A DNA stretch of 64,000 bases from Armatimonadota bacterium (GTDB taxonomy: Bacteria; Armatimonadota; HRBIN16). Below are positions 300-49,508 of the stretch, piece by piece. Position 1 is the first letter of the stretch. Every line of letters begins with the position of its first letter. Under the pieces are notes generated by a model. That model ran no database searches. It worked only from the letters and a program-made list of their open reading frames with translations, and was not told the origin of the DNA. Made by a program: the position numbers and the translations under genes. The stretch lies in the NCBI GenBank assembly GCA_026003175.1, contig BPGT01000002.1:1054001-1118000 (forward strand), read 5' to 3'.

Positions 300-1349
300 A
301 TGTGGTGGCGTATGGACAGGCAGGAGGAAACGTTTCCTCTTCTCGAGAGCATGTGTGAATATGATGACAAGTTATCTGCGCCTAAGGGGTTTATCTGGCT
401 TCTTCACTGTATAAGAAACTCAGAGCGCATCGTCAAGAAAGAACCGCTCTTTTTAGTCCCTCGACTAAGTCTAGATGAGGGGCATTGTACCCATTCCCCT
501 AACGGGAGATACTATTATCACTCCGAATTCATCGCTTCCCCTGATAACCCTGACGACTACGCCGCTATGACGTTATTCTGGGAGCGTGGGCAATCCATGC
601 CTCACAAACTTCCTATCTCCTCGCTATTCTATGCAGTTTTTTCCCCCGATAGCCGGTTCCTGTGCGGGTTCACTAAGGATGGCGCCTATCGCGCGGGTGT
701 CAGCAGCTTTTATGTAGTAGAGTGTGCCACTCGGAAAGTACGCCTGTTGTTTCGTCTGAAGTCGCCCCAAGATTTCACTTACAAGTGGGGTTGGTACCCT
801 GACAGTCGGCATATCTGGTACGCCCTCGGTAAATTCCGCGAGGAGAAGAAAGTGACAATCTACAAGTGCGATATCTCTTCGGGCACGCAGGTGCTGCTGC
901 AAGGCGTAGAGCGCGAGGCAGTGTTCAGGGACTGGGACCTTCTGGACCCACGTTATCGCTACAACTTGTTAACGGAAAATGCACAAGCTTTTGCATACGC
1001 ACGCAACCATCAAATACGGGTTCGTGTGGAGCCGATACGCGAGTGGGGCGAGGCAAAGCAGGGAGAGTCCGAAGTGTACGTTGAGAGGCGAGGTGGGCAA
1101 TCACGCCGATTGATACGTAGGAACGAACACCAGTGGATGCGAATTCAACCCCTAGATGTCTCCGAAGATGGGCAGTGGATATTACTGAAGTGTGAAAATT
1201 TGATAACGTATCAAGAGGCGAACCAAACAACGCAATCTATTCGCTCTGAACTCATCGTGTGGCACGCGCCGACGAAGCAGCATCGTGTGTATGCTCGCGC
1301 GGAGTATCCTCCTGTAGGGATGCCGGACTGGTGGTTTGTGCGCGAGTAG
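300..1349 (+). CDS. Beta-propeller-like protein, paralogue 1
   Basis: Predicted 349-aa protein without signal peptide or membrane segment. It contains WD40/TolB-like blade motifs (FSPDSRFL near residue 115, WGWYPDSRHIWY near 160, VSEDGQWILL near 285), which suggests a beta-propeller fold; no enzyme motif is visible. It is homologous to the genes at 2380, 12418 and 13615, which share WYPDSR, a central DWD motif and a late RRGG(Q/E)-R segment. The start is supported by GGAGGAGG about 8 bases upstream, overlapping the stop of the preceding dockerin/FN3 gene. The two are probably co-transcribed. The role is unknown; the lack of an export signal contrasts with its partner, which in the complete copy carries one. 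Confidence 0.75.
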   Translation: MWWRMDRQEETFPLLESMCEYDDKLSAPKGFIWLLHCIRNSERIVKKEPLFLVPRLSLDEGHCTHSPNGRYYYHSEFIASPDNPDDYAAMTLFWERGQSMPHKLPISSLFYAVFSPDSRFLCGFTKDGAYRAGVSSFYVVECATRKVRLLFRLKSPQDFTYKWGWYPDSRHIWYALGKFREEKKVTIYKCDISSGTQVLLQGVEREAVFRDWDLLDPRYRYNLLTENAQAFAYARNHQIRVRVEPIREWGEAKQGESEVYVERRGGQSRRLIRRNEHQWMRIQPLDVSEDGQWILLKCENLITYQEANQTTQSIRSELIVWHAPTKQHRVYARAEYPPVGMPDWWFVRE

Positions 1350-1370
1350 ATGAACTCTATAGCATATCAA

Positions 1371-1490
1371 CCCGGCCCTGGATCCCGAAGAGCGATGGAT
1401 TGAGATGGTATTTGGATACGAGGAGGCAGGCCCTATCGCCAGGAACTGGCGTGCAAGAGGCACTTATTTTATATTCGCAGACCAACCGAT
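1371..1490 (+). pseudogene. Remnant of a propeller-gene 5' end
   Basis: This stretch resembles the start of the propeller gene at about 2412-2530 at nucleotide level, including the shared string CCCTATCGCCAGGA and the encoded GPYRQEL-CK segment. It has no start codon of its own and is interrupted. It is directly followed by a fragment of a dockerin/FN3 gene, so it marks a deletion or recombination junction between two members of the array. Confidence 0.5.
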
Positions 1491-1496
1491 CATCCG

Positions 1497-2290
1497 AGCC
1501 GAAGCATATAGGTAGAGTTTCGTGCGAAGGCGGTGGGCACGGAGAGTAACCCCGATGCACCGGTATACGTCCAAACGGTGAGCATCGTTGCCCCGTCGGC
1601 AGAGGTGGATGTAGAGTTGACCCTGCCTGCTGGGGCGTATACGGTTCAGGCGAAGGCGAGCCACTGGCTAAGGGGTGAAGGTGTGGCATTGACCTCCGTG
1701 CCGTGGATATTCGCTGCGCCAACGGGGGCGGACAAGGTGACGGTGTATTGGGACCCTGTGCTGGGAGCGACAGGTTATCGGGTGCGCTGGGGCACAGCGA
1801 GCGGGGTATATCCCAACGTGTCTTCGGTACAGTCTGCGGATGCGCGGATGTTAAGCATCACGGGTTTAACCTCCGAGCAGGAGTATTACTTTGTGGTGGA
1901 GGCGGAGCGCAACGGGGTATGGAGTGCTCCATCGGAGGAGGATAGTGCGATTCCCCATGTGGGGGCGATACCGTGGGATAGCGGGGATGCTTCACTAATA
2001 ATGGCGCGTGTCAGGGCAATCACCGGTGCTGGCTTTGGTCAGGTCGAGGTGGTTAGTCCGGATGGCTTCGTCTACACCGACTATGGAACCAACCAGCCGG
2101 CGGGGTTCACGAGCAAAGACGCAAACACAGTAACATATTCCGATGGCTCTGTGATACCCCTGCAGCGAAACACCGAGGCTCTTGAAAACACCCGCACAGG
2201 GGCATATCGCCGTGTGCGCACGTCGGCAGCTGCAGGAGTAAGCGCGGTCCGGGCTAGATTTTGGTTGCCAGGGTGGCAGTATCGAGCGCT
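1497..2290 (+). pseudogene. Internal fragment of a dockerin/FN3 gene
   Basis: From about 1497 the DNA is nearly identical to 10795-11600 of the dockerin/FN3 gene at 10421. An in-frame TAG lies just upstream of the first shared codons, so the N-terminal leader and dockerin part are missing. The remaining frame (from GTG 1533) encodes the KASHWLR domain and a fibronectin-III-like domain (WIFAAP, then TGYRVRWG, then EQEYYFVVEA). Similarity ends near 2282 at FWLPGW, so the C-terminal domain is also missing. The frame then runs by chance to 2402. Unlike the 10421 copy, this fragment lacks the 4-bp TGCC duplication and stays in frame across that point. It is probably not a functional gene. Confidence 0.65.
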
Positions 2291-2334
2291 ACACCCGAGA
2301 GTTATTGATTATCAACTTATCTCCATAAAAAAAC

Positions 2335-2361
2335 AGGTGCTCGCCCGCGAGGCGATCACCT
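2335..2361. repeat. Inverted repeat ahead of propeller gene 2
   Basis: AGGTGCTCGC and GCGATCACCT can form a 10-bp stem with one mismatch around a 7-base loop, with A7 on the left side (2327-2333). Read on the minus strand it has the form of a Rho-independent terminator, but no minus-strand gene precedes it. On the plus strand it lies only a few bases before the ribosome binding site of the next gene and could affect its translation. Confidence 0.4.
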
Positions 2362-2379
2362 ATGGGAAGGAGGCACGAC

Positions 2380-3378
2380 ATGTTCGCACAGAGCACCAGT
2401 GAACTTTCTAGCATCCCCATCCGGCTTTGGGTTGCGGAATACGAGGGGGTGAAGAGGTATTGGATACATGGAGGCAAGCCCTATCGCCAGGAGCTGGTAT
2501 GCAAGATGGAGTTTTATTCGCTTATTCGCGGGAGCAGTGTCTCGCCCAACCGACGGTTTATAGTGGTTGCTCTCCATGCCGAAACGCTCGTGATAGATGT
2601 CGCTGCTCGAAAGTGGTATAACCTGACTCGTTCTCGGCGTTTTCCGGATGGCTCATACACTCTCGCCATCGAATACGTTCGCAGCTGGGCGCCGAATAAC
2701 CTGTATTTTCTGGCGGCAGACCGGCTGACATCGGGAGCTGATATGACGGTGTTTTCTGTTAGTCCACCCCGTCTCATTCGTCGTTTCATCGCAAACGGTG
2801 AGGTAAAATCGGTTGGCTGGTATCCACATAGCAAACATTTTTTCTATACCCTGGCCCCGAAGGGACAGGAAAGACAGCAGTCTAATCTGTTATCTCAACC
2901 GCACTACCTGCTACCCATTACAGGAGGAAGGCCGAGAAAGCTGTCCCGTCAGGAGGTGAGCCGACTGCTCACAGACTGGGACTATCTAGCATTCCGAGAT
3001 ACTTCTTTCACCTCGCCGAATTTAGTCAAATACACCCTTGATCGAAAGATGCGTGTGGTATACCGTGACGAACGGCCACAATCGTTGATTGTGGAACGAC
3101 GAGGAGGGGAACGGCGAGTTTTGAGTGTTCCCGCCGTTGCCAACACGCCAATAGAGATGTACTCGGTTTGCGATATTGACGCAGACCACCAGCGCTTGCT
3201 GGTCATGGATATCTATTGGAACTTCTATGTCGTGCGCATTGCCGACAACAGCTGGGGCAAAATAGGTAACGCTGCTTCGTTCATTCCGGGCGACCGGTCA
3301 AGAAAAGTGCCCGACATATTTGTTGTGGAATTTGTCAACACCGGGTATCTATTCCACAGCAGTGGGCGGTTTTGGTGA
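2380..3378 (+). CDS. Beta-propeller-like protein, paralogue 2
   Basis: Intact 332-aa member of the same family as 300-1349. The ATG at 2380 is preferred over the in-frame ATG at 2362 because AAGGAGG lies 6 bases ahead of it. Visible blade-like motifs are SVSPNRRFIVVALH near residue 50, RSWAPNNLYFLAAD near 105 and VGWYPHSKHFFY near 145. The DWDYL segment near 200 and ERRGGERR near 235 are the most conserved family marks. No signal peptide or catalytic motif is seen. It follows a broken dockerin/FN3 gene rather than an intact partner. It is the cleanest representative of the family in the window; function unknown. Confidence 0.75.
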   Translation: MFAQSTSELSSIPIRLWVAEYEGVKRYWIHGGKPYRQELVCKMEFYSLIRGSSVSPNRRFIVVALHAETLVIDVAARKWYNLTRSRRFPDGSYTLAIEYVRSWAPNNLYFLAADRLTSGADMTVFSVSPPRLIRRFIANGEVKSVGWYPHSKHFFYTLAPKGQERQQSNLLSQPHYLLPITGGRPRKLSRQEVSRLLTDWDYLAFRDTSFTSPNLVKYTLDRKMRVVYRDERPQSLIVERRGGERRVLSVPAVANTPIEMYSVCDIDADHQRLLVMDIYWNFYVVRIADNSWGKIGNAASFIPGDRSRKVPDIFVVEFVNTGYLFHSSGRFW

Positions 3379-3441
3379 GGGACATCTACGAGGAACAGAC
3401 AACGTGCGCGCCCTCTGCTGTCCTCAACCTTACAGCAACGA

Positions 3442-3471
3442 TTCACAGAAGTGCTATCCTTATGCTACAAT
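3442..3471 (+). promoter_or_regulatory. Sigma70-type promoter of the dockerin gene
   Basis: TTCACA, an 18-base spacer and TACAAT lie 39 bases before the ATG at 3510. The -10 region and leader down to the start codon recur almost unchanged at 14570-14618. Confidence 0.6.
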
Positions 3472-3509
3472 ATACCCGGCATCAGCCTGCGAGAAAGGAG
3501 GTTTCAACC

Positions 3510-4409
3510 ATGAAACGCTACCTCTGGCTTCTGGTACTCGCGCTGGCGATACCCACCCTCGCCGCGCCACCCAACTGGGACATCTCCAACACCGCCTGGA
3601 CGGCGCAAATCCGCGACGTGTACTATGGCTTCGTGTTCGACGGAAACATCCGCTTCTTCACCCAAAACACCACCACCGGCGAGTTCACCGGAAGGGTGCA
3701 ATACCTGCCCCCCAACAACAACCCGCTGGGGCAATACACCATCTCCGGCAGGGTGGATGGGGATACCATCTCCTTCTCCGGCGTCGCCAACATCCCCGGC
3801 GTGGGCAACACCGACGTGGTGTGGCAAGGAACGGTCACCCAGAACGGCGCCAAGATGCAGGGGCAGATGGCATATTGGGACTGGATTTGGGAAGTATGGG
3901 TGGTGTTTGACTGGTGGACGACCTCTGGGGGACCTGCACGTCCCATTGTGCGTACCTACACCATCAGTGGCAAGGTGCAGCTGGGCGACTGGGGCGGTGA
4001 CATCACCACCGTGCCGATCGTGGTGCAGTTGCGCAACGCGGGCAGCACGAACCCTATCCGCACGGTGACGCTCAATCTGGACAGTGCAGGCAACTATTCC
4101 CTGCCGGATGTGCCCAACGGCAACTACGACCTGGCGTTCAAGGCGAGCCACTGGCTGCGCAAGGTGGTTCGCAATGTGGCGGTAAGCGGTGCGAACGTGG
4201 GTGGCGTGAACGCCTCGCTGGTGAACGGGGACATCGACGGCGACAACGAGGTGACGCTGTTTGACTTCGGTGGGCTGGTAGCGGCTTTTGGCAGTGTGCC
4301 GGGCGACAGCAACTGGAACCCCGATGCGGATTTGGATGGTGATGCGGAGGTGACGCTGTTTGATTTTGGAATCCTCGTGCGCAACTTTGGATTAACCGGC
4401 GATGAGTAA
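3510..4409 (+). CDS. Secreted protein with C-terminal dockerin repeats
   Basis: 299-aa exported protein. The ATG at 3510 follows AGAAAGGAGG and begins a signal peptide (MKRYLWLLVLALAIPTLAAP). The N-terminal half (about residues 22-145) is an unrecognised beta-rich domain. Next comes a domain starting KVQLGDWGG and ending FKASHWLR, also present in the FN3 gene at 10421 and the HAF protein at 47962. The last 60 residues hold two dockerin-type calcium-binding repeats, GDIDGDNEVTLFDF and ADLDGDAEVTLFDF. Dockerins bind cohesins in cellulosomes, but no cohesin is encoded here, so the repeats may anchor or stabilise the protein in another way. The stop overlaps the start of the next gene by 8 bases. 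Confidence 0.8.
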   Translation: MKRYLWLLVLALAIPTLAAPPNWDISNTAWTAQIRDVYYGFVFDGNIRFFTQNTTTGEFTGRVQYLPPNNNPLGQYTISGRVDGDTISFSGVANIPGVGNTDVVWQGTVTQNGAKMQGQMAYWDWIWEVWVVFDWWTTSGGPARPIVRTYTISGKVQLGDWGGDITTVPIVVQLRNAGSTNPIRTVTLNLDSAGNYSLPDVPNGNYDLAFKASHWLRKVVRNVAVSGANVGGVNASLVNGDIDGDNEVTLFDFGGLVAAFGSVPGDSNWNPDADLDGDAEVTLFDFGILVRNFGLTGDE

Positions 4410-5146
4410 TCGCCAGCAACGGTTGCAGAAAATCCTGGCGCAGGCGGGCTACGGTTCTCGGCGGGCGTGTGAGCAGCTTATCTTGCAGGGGCGTGTGCGC
4501 GTGAACGGGCAGGTGGTCACGCAGCTGGGTACGCAGGTTGATGCGCGCACCGACATCATAGAGGTAGATGGCAAGCGGGTGCAACTGCCAGAACAGCACA
4601 CCTACATCTTGCTACACAAGCCAGCGGGCGTAGTCACCACCCGCCGCGACGCGCACGCCGTCCGTACGGTGATGGATTTGCTACAGGGCGTTACCGCTGC
4701 TGTGTTCCCTGTCGGTCGCCTGGACGCTGATACCACAGGCGCGCTGTTGCTGACCGACGACGGCGAGCTGGCATATCGCCTCACGCACCCACGCTATGGC
4801 GTCACGAAAACTTATCTCGTAGAGGTGCGTGGCGAGGTAGGAGAAGAAGCCCTGCGCTGCCTGCGGGAAGGGGGTACCGCTGGAAGATGGCATGACCGCT
4901 CCGGCGCAGGTGCAGAAGGTGCGGTATATTGTCCAGCGCAAGACCACTCTCCTGCGCCTGACCATCCACGAAGGGCGCAAGCGACAGGTCAAACGGATGT
5001 GTCAGGCAATCGGGCATCCCGTCGTACGCCTGCACCGCGAGCGGTTCGGTTCCCTCAACCTGCATCGTTTGCCAGTTGGTGCATGGAGGCATCTCACCGA
5101 AGAAGAGGTTGCCGCCCTCCGTCGGGCTGTGGGGTTGCCTGCTTAA
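4402..5146 (+). CDS. Ribosomal large-subunit pseudouridine synthase, RluB/RsuA family (frameshifted)
   Basis: Converts a uridine in rRNA to pseudouridine. An N-terminal S4 RNA-binding domain (residues 2-60, RLQKILAQAGYGSRRACE) is followed by the catalytic domain with the PVGRLDADTTGALLLT motif, whose aspartate is catalytic. The reading frame breaks at the G5 run 4870-4874; removing one G gives a continuous 247-aa protein of normal family length ending EGRKRQVKRM...GLPA. As given, the frame would run on to 5202 with a nonsense tail. The start overlaps the upstream dockerin gene, and the stop overlaps that of the convergent TPR gene. RluB is more likely than RsuA or RluF, but substrate assignment is not certain. 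Confidence 0.8.
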
Positions 5147-41913: not shown

Positions 41914-42453
41914 CTACCTCTTGCGACAACGCAGTGTACGCCGGGCAAACAGCATGGCCACACCTGAAGCGAGAACAGCCGCCGCCGTGGGTTCGGGCAC
42001 TACTCCCTGTACCTCCAGCTGCCAGGTCGCTCCTAGCGCTACAGCTGAGGCTCCGCCGATTTCGTCAAACTCCAGCACGGCAGTAGGCGTATAAAGCGCG
42101 GAAGGAGCATTCGAACCGATATCGATGCCAAAGAGCGGAAAGTCGTGATACTCGTACGGCTCAAAGTGCAGTGTGAGGTCGGTTAGGTCGTTGATCGCCC
42201 AGTCATAAAAGGGCATGTCGTCGGTGTTCACGCCTACCGCGACCAACCCATCGTTGAAGGAAACGAACCGAACGTCTACGGGGGCGTTACCCCAGTACTG
42301 CAGGAAACCCCATACAGTGTAGTAGCTACTGCCTGCGGATAGCACCAGTTCATCTGGGGCAACAAAGAAATCCCACTGCGCTCGTGCGATGCCTGAGAGC
42401 AGTGTCAGGTAAAGCGCGAGAACGACACCGAGATACCGAAATCGCTTGTTCAT
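41914..42453 (-). CDS. PEP-CTERM exported protein
   Basis: 179 aa. The signal peptide is at the N-terminus (YLGVVLALYLTLLSGIARA); at the C-terminus VPEPTAAAVLASGVAMLFA followed by an Arg/Lys-rich end forms a PEP-CTERM sorting signal, cleaved by an exosortase in other bacteria. No exosortase gene is in the window. The body is a beta-rich domain with no recognised family. The ATG at 42453 follows GGAGG 8 bases upstream. It lies downstream of the IPT/TIG protein on the same strand, 75 bases away. Confidence 0.85.
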   Translation of the reverse strand: MNKRFRYLGVVLALYLTLLSGIARAQWDFFVAPDELVLSAGSSYYTVWGFLQYWGNAPVDVRFVSFNDGLVAVGVNTDDMPFYDWAINDLTDLTLHFEPYEYHDFPLFGIDIGSNAPSALYTPTAVLEFDEIGGASAVALGATWQLEVQGVVPEPTAAAVLASGVAMLFARRTLRCRKR

Positions 42454-42528
42454 TTTCAGAACCTCCAGATTAGTATCATGTTGTCCCTCTCCCGATACCA
42501 TCGAGAGAGGGACAGGACAAAGGCGAAC

Positions 42529-44769
42529 TTAAGGAACCGTTACAATGCGCGACACGCTCCAGCTGCCCTGGTTGCTTGTACCGGTGACACGGATAACGAA
42601 CGACTGACCACTTTGGATGTTGGGGGTCGCGAACTCGAAAATCAGCTGCACGCTCTGTCCCGCTGTCAACCCCGATAGCCCCGGGTCCGGTAGAAGCACG
42701 GTAGGCTGCCCATTCAGTGTAGCAGAGGTCAACCGGCCACCTGTCATTGCGCCACCACCCTCATTCTTGATGGTCACAAATACCTGACTCACCACGTTGG
42801 GGGCGATATGCGCATCAGTCATACGCAGGGAGGGCGAACCGCCCGGTCCTGTGCCCGGAGGTGGTGGAGGCGGGGTAATCCGTCGCGCGATCACTCTGAA
42901 GCCGACACTGTTGGACCACCAGCCCGAGCTGGGGTTATACACATTCACGTAGTATGTCCCCGCGTTTGCCGCCAGGCTCTTCGAGGCGATGGCACGCAGT
43001 TCTGTGCTGGATACGTAGGTGGTTGGCAGCTCGTTCCCGCCGAAATACACTTTCGCCCCGTCCTCGAAACCGTTTCCCGTCACCCGAACAGTGAAGTCCG
43101 ATGACGGGTTCTGCAGAATGGAGTTCGGCGTGAGGCGCGTGACGGACGGTATCGCTACCGTCACCACAAACTGCAGGCTGTTGGAGTAGTCATTCAGCGA
43201 TGGTTCGTATACCCGCACCGCGTAGACACCCGGCGTGGTGAGCAAATCATCCGGCAGATCTGCTCGCATCTCGCCTGACGAGATAAAAGTGGTAGATAGC
43301 AAAGTGCCATCGAAATCAATCTGTGATGCAGGCGTGAAGTGAGATCCCTGCACACGCAGCTGCACCCCTGTAGAACCCGCTCGCACACCCGAGGGGGACA
43401 TCAAGCTGAGCATTGGTGACTGTCCAGTGCCAATGGTGAAGGTCAATTCGCCGGAACGGTTTCCGCCAGGTGGCGGCACGAACGGATTAAAAACCGCTAC
43501 CTGTGCAGCGCCAGGCGACGCAACCGCCCACTCAGGTACTTCTACCTCTAGCTGTGTGGGGCTGATGTAGGTTGTTCCTAAAGCATAGCCATCCCACTGC
43601 ACTACCGCATTCGGGCGAAAGCCCCTGCCTTCCACGGTGAGCGTGAAACCGCCGCTACCGGCAGGAACGGTCGACGGGCTGAGATGAGACAGCTCGGGAG
43701 TGGGCGTATGGGCTGGCGCGGTTGCCAATACCGCGCGCCAGTCTCCTCCCGTGTTACTGCTGCCCACCAACACGTTGCCGTCTGCAGAGGCGTCCGTCAC
43801 TTTCCCCAAAGGATAGATGTGGTCGCCCGCCGGACTGAGGCTTTGCAGGAATTGCCTCAGGTACTGCGGAGGTAGTGTGATGCTATGCCAGATGACAGCC
43901 GCGTAAGTTTCTCCCTCCGCGCCGTACCATCCTGCCTCCGGGTCGTCGTATGGCACTCGCCACGTGCCTGCCGCCCGGGGTTGCCCGTCCGCTCCACGCC
44001 ATACCGCTCCGATGAACGGCTCCGTTCGCCCTTGAGTTTGCGGAGTAACGGGCAGGCGAGGCAGGATAACAACACCTGTGCTCTCGCTCCAGATAAAGGC
44101 TTCGTACCGAGAGCCATCCCAGATAGTCCCTGCAACCAGCGAGCCATCGCCGGAGACCGCTTGTGGAGTAGCATAGCGCGGAAGCGGGACATATGCCCCG
44201 CCGATACGCTCGACGAAGCCCGTTTCCGTCCTACCCGACCCGCTAACGATACCAATCACCGTGCTTCCATCGCGAGAGGTGCGCGTTGGACGAAGCGTGT
44301 AGGTGTAGCCAGTTCCTGTACTGGGCCACACTTTGATATCCGTGTCTGTGGCGAGGTCACGCAGGGCGGCGTAGTCACGCCACAGGATGAAGCGGGTTGC
44401 GGCATCGTCTATTGCCCATGCGTTGCTGGGGCTCGGAAAGAACTGGGGGGCGCTATTTACCCTCCATACAAACGCACTGTCGCGCACTGCGCCAACCACG
44501 ATGCTTCCATCGAACGAGATACCGTTCGCGTAGCCCCATGCACCCGGAAACAACCGTGCCCAGCCATCCATGATGCTCCATACCGCCGGCTCCGTCGCCT
44601 CCATCGTGGTCATTGCAGCCGCAACAGAGTTCCCATCGCCAGAGAGAGCGCTAAGATACGTGGCACCAGGTGGGCGCAGGTATTCGAAGAACTGCGCGTG
44701 GGCAAAGGTCATCCCTGCCCACAGAACCCACAGCAGTACTAACTCGAAACATACGACATGCTTAGACAT
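42529..44769 (-). CDS. Secreted protein with HAF-like and IPT/TIG repeats
   Basis: 746-aa exported protein. A signal peptide (ELVLLWVLWAGMTFAHA) leads into an N-terminal region of about 340 residues with HAF-type repeats, each with a D-G-S (ALSGDGNSVAAA, GISFDGSIVVGA, AVSGDGSLVAGT). Then come three IPT/TIG immunoglobulin-like domains (each opening LSPSTVPAGS / MSPSGVRAGS / LTPNSILQNP), a Pro-rich linker, and a final CARDB-like beta domain. Likely a surface or matrix protein. The ATG at 44769 follows AAGGGAGG. A SARP-type direct repeat precedes its probable promoter; the SARP gene lies upstream on the same strand. Confidence 0.8.
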   Translation of the reverse strand: MSKHVVCFELVLLWVLWAGMTFAHAQFFEYLRPPGATYLSALSGDGNSVAAAMTTMEATEPAVWSIMDGWARLFPGAWGYANGISFDGSIVVGAVRDSAFVWRVNSAPQFFPSPSNAWAIDDAATRFILWRDYAALRDLATDTDIKVWPSTGTGYTYTLRPTRTSRDGSTVIGIVSGSGRTETGFVERIGGAYVPLPRYATPQAVSGDGSLVAGTIWDGSRYEAFIWSESTGVVILPRLPVTPQTQGRTEPFIGAVWRGADGQPRAAGTWRVPYDDPEAGWYGAEGETYAAVIWHSITLPPQYLRQFLQSLSPAGDHIYPLGKVTDASADGNVLVGSSNTGGDWRAVLATAPAHTPTPELSHLSPSTVPAGSGGFTLTVEGRGFRPNAVVQWDGYALGTTYISPTQLEVEVPEWAVASPGAAQVAVFNPFVPPPGGNRSGELTFTIGTGQSPMLSLMSPSGVRAGSTGVQLRVQGSHFTPASQIDFDGTLLSTTFISSGEMRADLPDDLLTTPGVYAVRVYEPSLNDYSNSLQFVVTVAIPSVTRLTPNSILQNPSSDFTVRVTGNGFEDGAKVYFGGNELPTTYVSSTELRAIASKSLAANAGTYYVNVYNPSSGWWSNSVGFRVIARRITPPPPPPGTGPGGSPSLRMTDAHIAPNVVSQVFVTIKNEGGGAMTGGRLTSATLNGQPTVLLPDPGLSGLTAGQSVQLIFEFATPNIQSGQSFVIRVTGTSNQGSWSVSRIVTVP

Positions 44770-44852
44770 TGCTATCCTCCCTTCACGGATAGATGAAGGC
44801 GTCGTGGTGGCACGTCGCGGCACCACGCGCGAGCGTCCTTTATTACAGGAAG

Positions 44853-44886
44853 AGTATGACACAGGGGCGTTACAAAAACGTTACAA
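44853..44886 (-). promoter_or_regulatory. Putative SARP-regulated promoter of the IPT/TIG gene
   Basis: On the minus strand TTGTAACG occurs twice with an 11-base period (44879-44886 and 44868-44875), followed 9 bases later by CATACT (44853-44858) as a -10 box. Known SARP sites are direct repeats with 11-bp period placed about 8 bases from the -10 box and replacing a good -35. The match of geometry is seen; the link to the adjacent SARP is inference. Confidence 0.55.
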
Positions 44887-44971
44887 AGAAAATGTTGCGA
44901 AGATTCCGAAAAAAAGTTTGCTGGCGGCACATCGCCCGGCCGGCAAGGAGGCTCCTCCGCACATCGGATGA

Positions 44972-47872
44972 TTAGAGCAGTGACTCCGCGAGGGCAAGCA
45001 CTTCTTGCGTGGAGAGCGAACGCCCTCGATTTGCCTGTTGCTGATAAACCTCTTCGCCCATCCGAAGGCGTAGTACGTGCTCGGTTTCGCGAAGATAGGA
45101 AGGGGAGGAGGGCAGATACAATCTTTGCCTTAAACTCTCACAGGCTCCTGCCACCTGCGCCCCGGCGGCATCGTTCCCTGTACGTGTGAGAAAGGCAGTA
45201 AAGCTCTCTGCGGCTTCCAGAAAGCCATGACGGTCTTCTATTTGGGCGCGTATCTGCAAGCAACGGAAGAGCTGCCGGGCGCATTCCATATTGTCTCCCT
45301 CATGGAAAGCAACTTGCCCCAGATTGTAATGTACAAACCCCATAGCGTACTGATCACCGACCGCCTCCGCTGTATGGAGGCACGATTGGTAGAGTGCTCT
45401 GGCGCGTTCCATGTCCCCCGCGCGTTGTGCCAGATTGCCCATCCACATCATGGCGTAGGTTCGCGCTTCCGCGCTTTGTGCTTCTTCCGCAAGCACCAAT
45501 CCACGCGCGTAGGTAGCCTCTGCCTGTTCATACCTGCTCATCCGGTAGAAAACGTTACCCAGCCAGATGGTGGCAAAAGCCTGTCCTTCCGTGTCACCCT
45601 CCCGCTCGAAGCGACGCAGGCTCTCACGCAGCATCTCCTTTGCAACAGAGAGGTCTCTCTGCATCCACGCCAGTGCGCCCGCTCCCATCGCTACCCATGC
45701 CCACCAATGCGAGGTCTCCCTGTCAACCGCCTCCCTGTAATCCGCGACAAGCCCGTCCAGCAAGTTCCTGCTCTCCACAAGGATACCGCGCATCATCCAG
45801 AACACCCACAGGTTTGCAGCCATCTGCAGAACGGCAGGGTTGCTTCGGGAGGTGTCCCTGCGCCGCGTGTACTCGATAGCTTCCGTCATATTCTGTTTTT
45901 CCCGCTCTACCCACAACGACCACCGTGCCGCCTGCGGTCCCACCCTGTTGGCGTTAGCGTGTGCGGCGAGGTGACTGTAAAACAGAAAGTGGCGGGCAAA
46001 CGCATCGCTCGCGTATGGCTCCTCCTGTAATTTCTCCAGAGCGAAGCGGCGTACGACCTCCGGCATCCGGTAGCGTGCCTGTCCGTCCTGCTCATCCATC
46101 TGCATCAGTGAGCACTCAATCAGCGCGTCCAGGGTATCCAGCACAGTCACGTCCAGCGCGTTGTCATCGCTTTGCAGCTGCCCCGTTAACACACAGCCGG
46201 CACCCGCGAGGTCCCAACCTCCAGTGAACACGGAGAGCATCGAGAACGCCTTCTTCATCTCTGGCGACAGCAGGGCATGGCTCCACTCCAGCGAGGCGTG
46301 CAAGGAACGATGCCGCTCAGGCTGCAAGGAGTTGGGCGCGCTCAATATATGCGCCTCTTGTCGGATAGTACGCAGTATTTGAGACGGCGAGAGCACCCGC
46401 ACTCTGGACGCAGCAAGAATAAGAGCCAGAGGTACCCCTTCCAGATACTCGCAAATCTTAGCGACAGCAAGCGCGTTCTCCGGTGTGAGACCAAATCCCG
46501 CACGCACCGTCTGGGCGTGCCGCACGAAAATCTGCACGCTGGGGCAACGTTGCAACAATTCCAGTGCACTGCTATCTGGTAAGCCACCTTCTCCTTGCCG
46601 CGCTTCTGCCAACGGTACTTCCAGTGGGCACAGGCGCAGTACCTGCTCTTCTGGCAAGCCCGTTCTTCGGCGCGAAGTCATCAGCACCTGCAGTAACGGC
46701 AGATGCTGCAACAGGTCACAGACTACCTGCGCACCACTGGCGTCCACCTGCTCGAAATTATCCAGTACCAGCAGCAAGGGATAGCCTGCCAGCATTTGTA
46801 TTGCCGTATCCATTAGCTGTTCTGCAGGTATAGCTACACCGGTAGCACGCAAGACGCGCTCGAGCAGGGCACGCCCTTCTCGAACGTCTGATACGTCTAC
46901 GAACCACACACGTTGTCCCTTGCTCACGAGTCGACGGGCAACCTCTATCGCCAGACTGGTTTTGCCAATGCCTCCTTCTCCAGTGATGGTAATGTGGCGT
47001 ATGGCACTTGTACCGAGCCACTCCATCAAACGTGCCGTTTCGCGCTCACGTCCGAACAGCCCGGTTGGAGTAGGTGGTAGCCTGCTGTCACACAGCTGCT
47101 GGGCAGATTGACACATATGTCGCGCGCTATCTTGCGCCTGTTGCGCCAGATGCTGTATGGCACGAGAGGGTATGGTATCCAGTTCCTCGCAGATGAGACG
47201 TTCCCACTCGCGGTATACCCGCATTGCTTCCGCTGGATAGCCTCGTGCCAGATAGATACGCATCAGCGCCATGCGCGGCTCTTCGCGCAGAGGGTCACAG
47301 GTAATACCCCGCAGAGCGTACCCCTGGGCATCCTCATATTGTCCCCTCTCCTCCAGCAGGCGAATGAGTTCATCTAAAGCGCAGAAATAACGCTCCATTG
47401 TCTGCTGCTGCAGCTGCAACACCCACTCTTCGTAGAACCCTTTAAGCGGTACGTCGGCGCAATAGTCTATGGCATCCTGCAGATGAGCGATACGTTCCGA
47501 TGTGTCCGAGGTGCGACGTGCCAGACGGAGGTTTTGCTCCATATCGTTCAGGTCGGTCCTCACCGCACTGGAACGCAAGCCAATGCCGAAGTTGTCTGAG
47601 TAGAACACCTCGCCAGCGGGTATGCTCGCTTGCTCCAGCTGTTTGCGCAGGGCGCTCAGTGCCACGCGCAGGCTGGTGCGCCCGGTGTCCACATCGCTAT
47701 CCTCCCACAGCAGGTCAATCAGCGTCTCGCGAGGGTGGATCTGGTGCGGGTTTGCCGCGAGATATGCCAGAAGCGAAGCGGTCTTCCGGGTACGAAAGTG
47801 CGTGATGACTTGCTGTGGTGTAACCACACGCAAACCACCAAATAGTTCCACGCGACATAAAGGTGTTGTCAC
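44972..47872 (-). CDS. SARP/BTAD-type regulator with NB-ARC ATPase and TPR domains
   Basis: 966-aa transcription factor. Residues 1-100 form an OmpR-like winged helix (LFGGLRVVTPQQVITHFRTR, SALRKQLEQ) and 100-250 the bacterial transcriptional activation domain. An NB-ARC/STAND ATPase follows, with Walker A GEGGIGKTSLAIEVA and Walker B-like LLLVLDNFEQV, then a helical region and at least five TPR-like repeats (GNVFYRMSRYEQAEATYARG, GNLAQRAGDMERARALYQSC). STAND proteins usually switch on when a ligand binds and nucleotide is exchanged. It starts at GTG 47872 with AAGGAG 6 bases upstream. Neighbouring genes encode surface proteins, the likely targets. Confidence 0.9.
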   Translation of the reverse strand: MTTPLCRVELFGGLRVVTPQQVITHFRTRKTASLLAYLAANPHQIHPRETLIDLLWEDSDVDTGRTSLRVALSALRKQLEQASIPAGEVFYSDNFGIGLRSSAVRTDLNDMEQNLRLARRTSDTSERIAHLQDAIDYCADVPLKGFYEEWVLQLQQQTMERYFCALDELIRLLEERGQYEDAQGYALRGITCDPLREEPRMALMRIYLARGYPAEAMRVYREWERLICEELDTIPSRAIQHLAQQAQDSARHMCQSAQQLCDSRLPPTPTGLFGRERETARLMEWLGTSAIRHITITGEGGIGKTSLAIEVARRLVSKGQRVWFVDVSDVREGRALLERVLRATGVAIPAEQLMDTAIQMLAGYPLLLVLDNFEQVDASGAQVVCDLLQHLPLLQVLMTSRRRTGLPEEQVLRLCPLEVPLAEARQGEGGLPDSSALELLQRCPSVQIFVRHAQTVRAGFGLTPENALAVAKICEYLEGVPLALILAASRVRVLSPSQILRTIRQEAHILSAPNSLQPERHRSLHASLEWSHALLSPEMKKAFSMLSVFTGGWDLAGAGCVLTGQLQSDDNALDVTVLDTLDALIECSLMQMDEQDGQARYRMPEVVRRFALEKLQEEPYASDAFARHFLFYSHLAAHANANRVGPQAARWSLWVEREKQNMTEAIEYTRRRDTSRSNPAVLQMAANLWVFWMMRGILVESRNLLDGLVADYREAVDRETSHWWAWVAMGAGALAWMQRDLSVAKEMLRESLRRFEREGDTEGQAFATIWLGNVFYRMSRYEQAEATYARGLVLAEEAQSAEARTYAMMWMGNLAQRAGDMERARALYQSCLHTAEAVGDQYAMGFVHYNLGQVAFHEGDNMECARQLFRCLQIRAQIEDRHGFLEAAESFTAFLTRTGNDAAGAQVAGACESLRQRLYLPSSPSYLRETEHVLRLRMGEEVYQQQANRGRSLSTQEVLALAESLL

Positions 47873-47961: not shown

Positions 47962-49479
47962 CTACGGCTCCTCTCCCACCGCCCCGAAACTCCTCACCAG
48001 AATACCGAAATCAAACAACGAGACTTCTCCGTCGCCGTCGAGGTCTGCATCCGCGTTCCACGCCTCGTCTCCCGCCATGGTACCGAACGCAGCAACCAGC
48101 CCGCCGAAGTCAAACAGCGTCACCTCATTATCGCCATCCACGTCGCCGTTAGTGAGCGCAACGTCCACACCGTTTACATCGGCGTCGGTAACGGCTACGT
48201 TGCGCACCAAGACACGCAGCCAGTGCGGCGCTTTGAAAGCTACATCGTAGGATGCAGGAGACACATCGTACAACGTGTAATTTCCACTGGCGTCGGTGTA
48301 AATCTGTTCCTGACGAACAAGTGTGCCGCTTCGGTATAACTCCAGAGTGATGGGCACTTGTGTGCTATCGCCACTATAATCGCGCAGCTGCACATTGCCT
48401 TGCAGCCGAAACGTTCCCTGCGTATCCAGCAAGAACGCTTCTCTGCGTCGTGCTGTGGCGTGGATACCGAATCCCACAATAAAACGTCCATCTGGCGAAA
48501 TCGCTCTGGCACTCTCCAAAATAGAGCCGTCGGTCAACAGACCAAAGTAGGTCACATTGAGATCCTCGGTGCCCATTCCCATGCGCCAGCGAAGCGCACG
48601 GGAACTAGCGCTGAGCAGAGATGTTTCGCCAACCGCAATTTGACCGTCCCCGGAGACATCGTACGCCCAAACGTAATAACTGTTGGGCAACAGTCCCAGA
48701 TGACGTATCTCATCCATTTCCGTCCAGCGGAAAGCACGGAACAGAGCGGCATCGTTGTACGACCAGCCGACCACCACTAACCCATCGCTAGATATACCCA
48801 TCGCCATGCTATGAGAGCCACCAAGCGTATCCAGGTCTGCCGCTATTCCATCCCTGCCCCACCGACAGGCATGATATTCTCCATCGGGTATGTATGCCCA
48901 CCCTGCCACGATGCTGCCGTCGGCGGATACATCGCGTGCGCCGCTCCACGAGCCTCCAAGCGTACCCATATCTTGCATTCCTTGCGCCTGGCTCCACCGG
49001 AACGCATGCCCCACGCCGGCAGCAGTAACGGACTCACCGACGATCACTCCGCCGTCCGCAGAAACGCCGTACGCGCGACTCCAACTTCCTCCAAGGGTAC
49101 CAACTGCTTGCATCCCTTCTGCCAATGTCCAGCGAAAGGCGTAGGACGTGCCAGACGAGCTCACGCTTTCCCCCACCACCACCCTTCCATCGGCGGAAAC
49201 AGCGAGTGCCTTGCTCTCGTTGCTATAAAAGGGCAATACACCGAGGTCCTGTATCCCCCCGGCTGGTTTCCAGAGGAAGGCATGTTGTTGACCGGATATC
49301 AGTTTCGCCCATCCTACCACTGATTGACCGTCGGCAGAGACACCAACTGCTATGCTTTCGGAACCACCAAGCGTGCCAAGCCAGGTGAGCGTCTGCGCAT
49401 CGCCATTCGTCCATGTGCCCAGCCCGACGAAAAGGGATACAATCGCTTTGAGCACAAACCGTCCTGCTATACTTTGCAT
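47962..49479 (-). CDS. Secreted HAF-repeat protein with C-terminal dockerin
   Basis: 505-aa exported protein. A signal peptide (VLKAIVSLFVGLGTWTNGDA) is followed by about seven HAF repeats (WLGTLGGSESIAVGVSADG, AVGTLGGSWSRAYGVSADG and similar). Residues about 360-435 form a domain ending FKAPHWLR, as in the proteins at 3510 and 10421. The last about 65 residues hold two dockerin repeats (GDVDGDNEVTLFDF, ADLDGDGEVSLFDF). The ATG at 49479 is chosen; a TTG 15 bases upstream is also in frame. Its promoter abuts a MITE insertion. Likely a surface-exposed propeller-like protein; no enzymatic motif is seen. Confidence 0.82.
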   Translation of the reverse strand: MQSIAGRFVLKAIVSLFVGLGTWTNGDAQTLTWLGTLGGSESIAVGVSADGQSVVGWAKLISGQQHAFLWKPAGGIQDLGVLPFYSNESKALAVSADGRVVVGESVSSSGTSYAFRWTLAEGMQAVGTLGGSWSRAYGVSADGGVIVGESVTAAGVGHAFRWSQAQGMQDMGTLGGSWSGARDVSADGSIVAGWAYIPDGEYHACRWGRDGIAADLDTLGGSHSMAMGISSDGLVVVGWSYNDAALFRAFRWTEMDEIRHLGLLPNSYYVWAYDVSGDGQIAVGETSLLSASSRALRWRMGMGTEDLNVTYFGLLTDGSILESARAISPDGRFIVGFGIHATARRREAFLLDTQGTFRLQGNVQLRDYSGDSTQVPITLELYRSGTLVRQEQIYTDASGNYTLYDVSPASYDVAFKAPHWLRVLVRNVAVTDADVNGVDVALTNGDVDGDNEVTLFDFGGLVAAFGTMAGDEAWNADADLDGDGEVSLFDFGILVRSFGAVGEEP

Positions 49480-49508
49480 TGTCTCACATCCCAAAAAGAT
49501 TATACGTA

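Follow-up and report, generated by a model that had tools for sequence, protein, structure and literature searches.

A candidate SARP operator upstream of a secreted IPT/TIG protein gene in Armatimonadota

To our knowledge, SARPs have been studied almost solely as antibiotic activators of actinomycetes. The half-sites of DnrI and ActII-ORF4 are of the TCGAG type. PhoB/OmpR-type boxes are occupied by winged-helix dimers on 11-bp direct repeats, which are found in place of the -35 element. SARP sites are described as direct repeats at 11 or 22 bp, with the 3' repeat located 8 bp from the -10 element (PMC10936776). Two protomers of AfsR are positioned side by side over the -35 region on two 11-bp repeats of the afs box, which overlaps the -35 element, and AfsR holds sigma region 4, the beta flap and the alpha-CTD (PMC10936776). 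The NOD and TPR parts inhibit AfsR until ATP is bound (PMC10936776).

The locus analyzed here lies in a window of 64 kb (the whole stretch of DNA under study) from a host outside Actinobacteria, the relatives of which are Armatimonadota (names assigned by homology). By every defining feature that was conclusively tested, the gene and the adjacent repeat are a large SARP with a candidate SARP operator. A first-pass annotation of this DNA had proposed a target and binding site for a SARP outside Actinobacteria, and this proposal is supported by conservation, geometry and covariation. The repeat very probably serves the adjacent large SARP as its operator, and a pair of SARP protomers would replace the -35 element there and activate the secreted TIG/CoaZ-repeat gene. 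Anatomy, conservation, geometry, fold and helix/half-site covariation were computed as described below.

Anatomy of the repeat and the adjacent SARP gene

The coordinates of the features are collected in Table 1. The minus strand, which also carries both flanking genes, contains at 44887-44868 the direct repeat TTTGTAACG-TT-TTTGTAACG, two identical 9-mers with a period of 11 bp. All details given by the first-pass annotation were reproduced, now with an explicit strand: the repeat search returned the 9-mer twice at 11 nt, nine nucleotides separate it from the -10-like CATACT, no -35/-10 sigma-70 promoter pair scores at the repeat in a promoter scan, and the SARP gene lies immediately upstream on the same strand, ending 85 nt before the repeat. 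No other period-11 exact 9-mer repeat is present in the window. In the 4.1-Mb genome the repeat has a single match at up to two mismatches, where genome-wide statements refer to pattern searches and family searches. An RNA element was rejected, as Rfam gave no match even at an E value of 1.

Table 1 Features of the SARP locus (window coordinates)
Feature	Position	Strand	Basis
AfsR-type large SARP gene, 966 aa	44972..47872	-	OmpR-type winged helix, BTAD, STAND ATPase (NB-ARC/AAA) and TPR
Codons of recognition-helix R69 and V70 (AfsR R87 and T88 in the alignment)	47663..47668	-	Alignment; covariation with positions 8-9 and 4 of the half-sites
Upstream half-site TTTGTAACG of the candidate SARP operator	44879..44887	-	Sequence, repeat search, orthologue alignment
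Downstream half-site TTTGTAACG, exactly 11 nt further	44868..44876	-	Sequence, repeat search, orthologue alignment
Extended -10, TGT-CATACT	44853..44861	-	CATACT hexamer (44858-44853), separated by 9 nt from the downstream half-site
Ribosome-binding site GGGAGGA of the target gene	44775..44781	-	Sequence
Target gene: secreted protein with IPT/TIG domains and choice-of-anchor Z repeats	42529..44769	-	Signal peptide, Pfam, NCBIfam

The secreted IPT/TIG protein that had been read downstream of the site was also recovered, with a signal peptide and matches to Pfam TIG (4e-21) and NCBIfam CoaZ_rpt_PGGG (1.5e-70). The real start of its gene is the ATG at 44769 behind the GGGAGGA motif; the GTG start of a longer form, at 44862, falls within the promoter. 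Just downstream of the TIG gene, 41914-42501 of the minus strand encodes a small protein that is secreted and ends in a PEP-CTERM-like tail (VPEPTAAAVLASGVAMLFARR). It is without a match in Pfam and NCBIfam and is possibly part of the TIG operon. On the other side of the locus, 90 nt directly upstream of the SARP gene, a HAF-repeat protein with a dockerin-like C-terminal region (47962-49494, minus strand) possibly belongs to the same functional group as the SARP gene. The repeat geometry was also looked for at the SARP gene's own promoter, as a sign of autoregulation, and was not seen there.

The SARP matches the Pfam families BTAD (2e-14) and Trans_reg_C (4e-10), followed by AAA_16, NB-ARC and TPR_12 in the C-terminal part. 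The NCBIfam AfsR model aligns to residues 7-403 with 4e-18, far under the equivalog cut-off, and the sequence matches the AfsR entry 8k60 of the PDB. Only one protein combining winged helix and BTAD, namely this SARP, was found in the genome; a second BTAD match is a 487-aa frame missed by the SARP search. The AlphaFold model of the N-terminal domain has a pLDDT of 95.8, and the only full-length PDB matches of the predicted N-terminal 255 aa are AfsR and EmbR (E 2e-12 to 1e-9).

In the alignment, SARP residue n corresponds to AfsR residue n+18. The AfsR DNA-backbone contacts W74, R87, S91, R94 and K95 are present as W56, R69, S73, R76 and K77, with W56 found in 133 of 134 relatives and R76 in 130 of 134. 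The base-contacting residues T88 and R92 of AfsR are replaced by V70 and A74, which fits a different half-site, so that the specificity is not transferable from AfsR. The RNA polymerase contacts of AfsR (D71, E76, R59, R173, E246 and L247) are kept in part: D53 and D58 (acidic, for AfsR E76), E230 and L231 are present, and AfsR R59 and R173 correspond to N41 and T158. Inspected by eye, region 4 of what is likely the primary sigma factor of this genome has the K-L-R of the AfsR contact, with N in place of H499.

Conservation in the genus and recurrence across the phylum

Ten species of the genus were compared. The SARP gene, the TIG orthologue and the repeat are found in constant order in five of them (G000, G002, G003, G004 and G006), and all three are absent from four (G001, G005, G008 and G009); in the tenth congener, G007, the SARP gene is cut by a contig end. 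The four congeners with a TIG orthologue are exactly those with the repeat. Lack of conservation in orthologous promoters had been named by the first-pass annotation as an outcome that would speak against the site, and the alignment of the five orthologous intergenic regions shows the repeat kept in all of them. It contains 18 consecutive invariant columns (TGTAACGTTTTTGTAACG) at a mean column identity of 57%, which excludes a chance origin of the repeat. In G002 (SARP 53% and TIG 61% identical), 20 of 20 bases of the 20-mer and the nine-nt gap to the -10 hexamer (TAGACT) are kept, while the flanks are saturated and unrecognisable.

A search for TTGTAACG before other surface-protein genes, as also suggested at first pass for relatives, retrieves only the orthologues, because every SARP has its own half-site sequence. 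Before other genes of the genome, the search for TTGTAACG-type repeats gave just one match with three mismatches, which is at background level, and a regulon under this exact sequence is therefore rejected.

Among 51 genomes outside the genus, a single match was located beside a SARP gene, in a member of another family (G021). Its SARP is 31% identical to that of the window and is directly followed by TTTGTAGCGCTTTTGTAGCG, 9 nt and TAGAAT. The 9-nt gap to the -10 hexamer is thus shared by G002, G021 and others. A match in a further genome (G018, locus L040) was discarded as chance, that genome being without a SARP match.

Recurrence of the geometry was surveyed by counting direct repeats located 8-10 nt before a -10-like hexamer, with all periods between 8 and 24 nt considered. 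The counts treat loci as independent and include the five loci of this genus. In the first survey of 99 SARP loci, period 11 was found in 13 loci and any other period in 0-3; when the opposite strand or the region upstream was taken instead, no period exceeded a count of 0-5 loci. The rule was then fixed before being applied to a held-out set of 97 SARP loci from new genomes. Exact 7/7 matches were found in 8 loci at period 11 versus 0-1 at other periods, and with one mismatch allowed in 15 loci versus 0-6 elsewhere. With a stricter fixed geometry, the pooled 196 SARP loci gave 23 sites at period 11 at a threshold of at least 7/9 (17 other periods: mean 1.8, maximum 6) and 13 sites at a threshold of at least 8/9 (mean of 0.5 at other periods). 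Downstream of 688 non-SARP genes from the same loci, no site was found at 8/9 and four at 7/9. Agreement came from a third set, made up of 57 loci with 22 SARP genes taken from named GTDB genomes in several phyla: three of its loci reached 8/9 at period 11, versus none. The SARP-site geometry noted at first pass recurs beside other SARP genes of the phylum, with a strong enrichment confined to period 11, to the coding strand and to the downstream side of SARP genes. The strict rule, which is conservative, finds a site in only about one sixth of the SARP loci, with looser sites in others; of 12 pseudopilin loci without a site by this rule, 7 showed one on inspection by eye.

Just after the SARP gene of L055 (3208-6105, minus strand), GTGTAAG occurs three times with an 11-nt period, 9 nt before TATAGT, and the next gene is yebC-like. 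In L248 (SARP at 1225-4920, minus strand), the repeat TTGAGAGAGTTTTGAGAGA is located at -10 distance before the SARP gene as well as before the next gene, encoding a HAF-repeat protein; this distant SARP apparently combines autoregulation with control of a target. An exact TTCGAGACG repeat with an 11-nt period precedes TAGCAT in L182 (3677-5860, plus strand), ahead of a gene seemingly divergent from the SARP gene, and its half-site contains the TCGAG known from DnrI. Outside Armatimonadota, a weak 11-bp repeat (GGTGAAAGG/CATGTAAGG, 6/9) is found after a SARP gene of a Chloroflexia MAG (L389), 9 nt before TACCAT, and fits the helix code described below.

Half-sites, recognition helix and alternative readings

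The letters of the half-sites vary by SARP within the common frame nnTKTnAnRnT. Direct binding by the adjacent SARP predicts that half-site and recognition helix covary, which a different trans-acting regulator would not yield. The following rules were noticed before they were tested, on loci that are not fully independent and include two near-identical ones. Across 36 sites, SARPs with R at residue 69 have pyrimidine-G at positions 8-9 of the downstream half-site in 12 of 15 cases and of the upstream half-site in 15 of 15; for other residues, the counts are 0 of 21 and 2 of 21, respectively (p = 4e-7 downstream, p = 2e-8 upstream). The association is retained in a partial Mantel test controlling for protein identity (p = 2e-4). 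With Q at residue 70, position 4 is T in 12 of 12 cases versus 10 of 24 for other residues; this rule becomes weak when protein identity is taken into account (partial Mantel p = 0.02). When all helix residues were compared with all half-site positions in an unbiased scan, the same residues ranked first and third; taken alone, their p values (0.002 and 0.004) do not remain significant on correction for about 225 pairs. In a later set, small in number, residue 69 was correct in 6 of 6 new cases (upstream half-site) and residue 70 in 4 of 6. In AfsR, the aligned R87 is a phosphate contact and T88 a base contact (PMC10936776).

These data bear on the possibility that some other regulator, a response regulator of the OmpR/PhoB family, uses the repeat as its box; this family also binds 11-bp direct repeats near the -10 element. 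The half-site family TKTnA resembles OmpR-type sites and PhoB-type boxes share the direct-repeat layout, but this reading is unlikely: the repeat occurs once in the genome and is confined to species with the SARP, the geometry is seen after SARP genes but not after other genes, the half-site letters follow the helix of the neighbouring SARP, and the gene always found beside the repeat encodes a SARP without a receiver domain.

Less likely still is that the SARP binds but represses, or switches between repressor and activator with its nucleotide state; every SARP with this geometry known to us is an activator, which counts against repression. The missing -35 element and the fixed 9-nt gap to the -10 hexamer, kept across families, correspond to an activator geometry, even though the extended -10 (TGTCATACT) might allow basal transcription and the NOD and TPR parts of AfsR act as its inhibitors (PMC10936776). 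It is highly improbable that the short repeat arose by chance or was kept neutrally in an intergenic region that has diverged little: two-copy short repeats often arise by chance, but all 20 repeat bases are retained between the saturated flanks of G002 and the enrichment in held-out loci is specific to strand, side and period.

Targets, proposed mechanism and comparison with known SARPs

In a crude reading, the first downstream genes of SARP loci mostly encode exported proteins. These are the TIG protein in the genus, HAF-repeat proteins (L075, L248), a cytochrome c (L092) and prepilin-type proteins in at least nine loci. Among 191 SARP loci, a prepilin-type gene is located downstream on the same strand in 21, convergent in one and upstream in two, and an 11-bp repeat precedes it in 16 of the 21. 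Prepilin-type genes after a SARP gene were seen in L146, L148, L152, L167, L169, L172, L175, L176, L193, L202, L205 and L206. Non-exported targets, namely YebC in L055 and enzymes in L155 and L161, may be wrongly assigned. In L050 (9422-9601 and following, plus strand; genome G021), repetitive small peptides of 60 and 128 aa with KGxGxNHNES repeats are encoded directly downstream of SARP gene and repeat; they could be a multi-core peptide precursor or a surface peptide. We know of no described regulation of surface proteins or pseudopilins in Armatimonadota. In Fimbriimonas, 79 pseudopilin genes have been reported (PMC4072686).

With the repeat read as the operator of the adjacent SARP, binding, activation and gating can be modeled on AfsR. 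Two SARP protomers would occupy both 11-bp half-sites side by side on one helix face. Through their hold on sigma region 4 and core RNA polymerase they would stand in for the -35 element, and transcription of the TIG/CoaZ-repeat gene would be turned on from the -10 hexamer. The STAND ATPase and TPR parts may gate this activity on a signal, like NOD and TPR in AfsR.

On a wider scale, Armatimonadota probably possess phylum-wide modules of one regulator and one target, with private, diverged 11-bp operators of invariant geometry, mostly exported targets (TIG, HAF repeat, cytochrome c, pseudopilin) and a two-residue code. In this code, R at residue 69 would specify YG at positions 8-9 and S or N mostly purine-purine, and Q at residue 70 would specify T at position 4. 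The control logic of Streptomyces antibiotic genes very probably works in another phylum on exported proteins, and SARPs are linked to surface proteins and pseudopilins, which are numerous in the phylum. Orthologue footprints, paralogue geometry and protein-DNA covariation together yield a concrete predicted binding sequence and target. They also suggest a possible rule for predicting the targets of many uncharacterised SARPs in Armatimonadota and perhaps Chloroflexota, and the half-site and helix variants form a natural series for how a SARP helix reads DNA. A literature search, mostly without subscription journals, gave no paper on a SARP operator outside the phylum of the actinomycetes. Relative to the searched literature, what is new is the phylum, the export of the targets, a private regulator-operator-target layout that is repeated over many paralogues, and the candidate code.

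The closest described system is AfsR with the afs box of the afsS promoter in Streptomyces coelicolor (PDB 8hvr, 8k60, 8jke). Both proteins share the SARP-NOD(STAND)-TPR order, the predicted fold of the N-terminal 255 aa and the DNA contacts (W56, R69, S73, R76 and K77 here), and the acidic D71/E76 correspond to D53/D58. Both sites consist of two 11-bp direct repeats over the -35 region, with a weak or absent -35 element. Differences are the identity of about 22%, the phylum, the half-site TTTGTAACG, V70/A74 for T88/R92 and the absence of the polymerase contacts R59 and R173. The target is a secreted TIG protein here and an antibiotic regulator in the case of AfsR. The gap to the -10 element is 9 nt versus 8 in the literature; counting one more base as part of the half-site brings it to 8.

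The pimM operator of the SARP-LAL regulator PimR is likewise composed of heptamers with 4-nt spacers, i.e. an 11-bp period, upstream of a single target gene (PMC3367932, PMC5930380), and three-copy operators are found both in the PimR type and, here, in L055. Peculiar to PimR are the CGGCAAG half-site, an operator off the -35 box, a guanylate cyclase/LAL-like C-terminal half and the location in an antibiotic cluster. The small SARPs DnrI and ActII-ORF4 also use 11-bp direct repeats near the -10 element (geometry according to PMC10936776) but, unlike the SARP of the window, are without a STAND-TPR sensor part. PhoB and OmpR, finally, are receiver-domain response regulators, whereas the linked and covarying protein at the present locus is a SARP.
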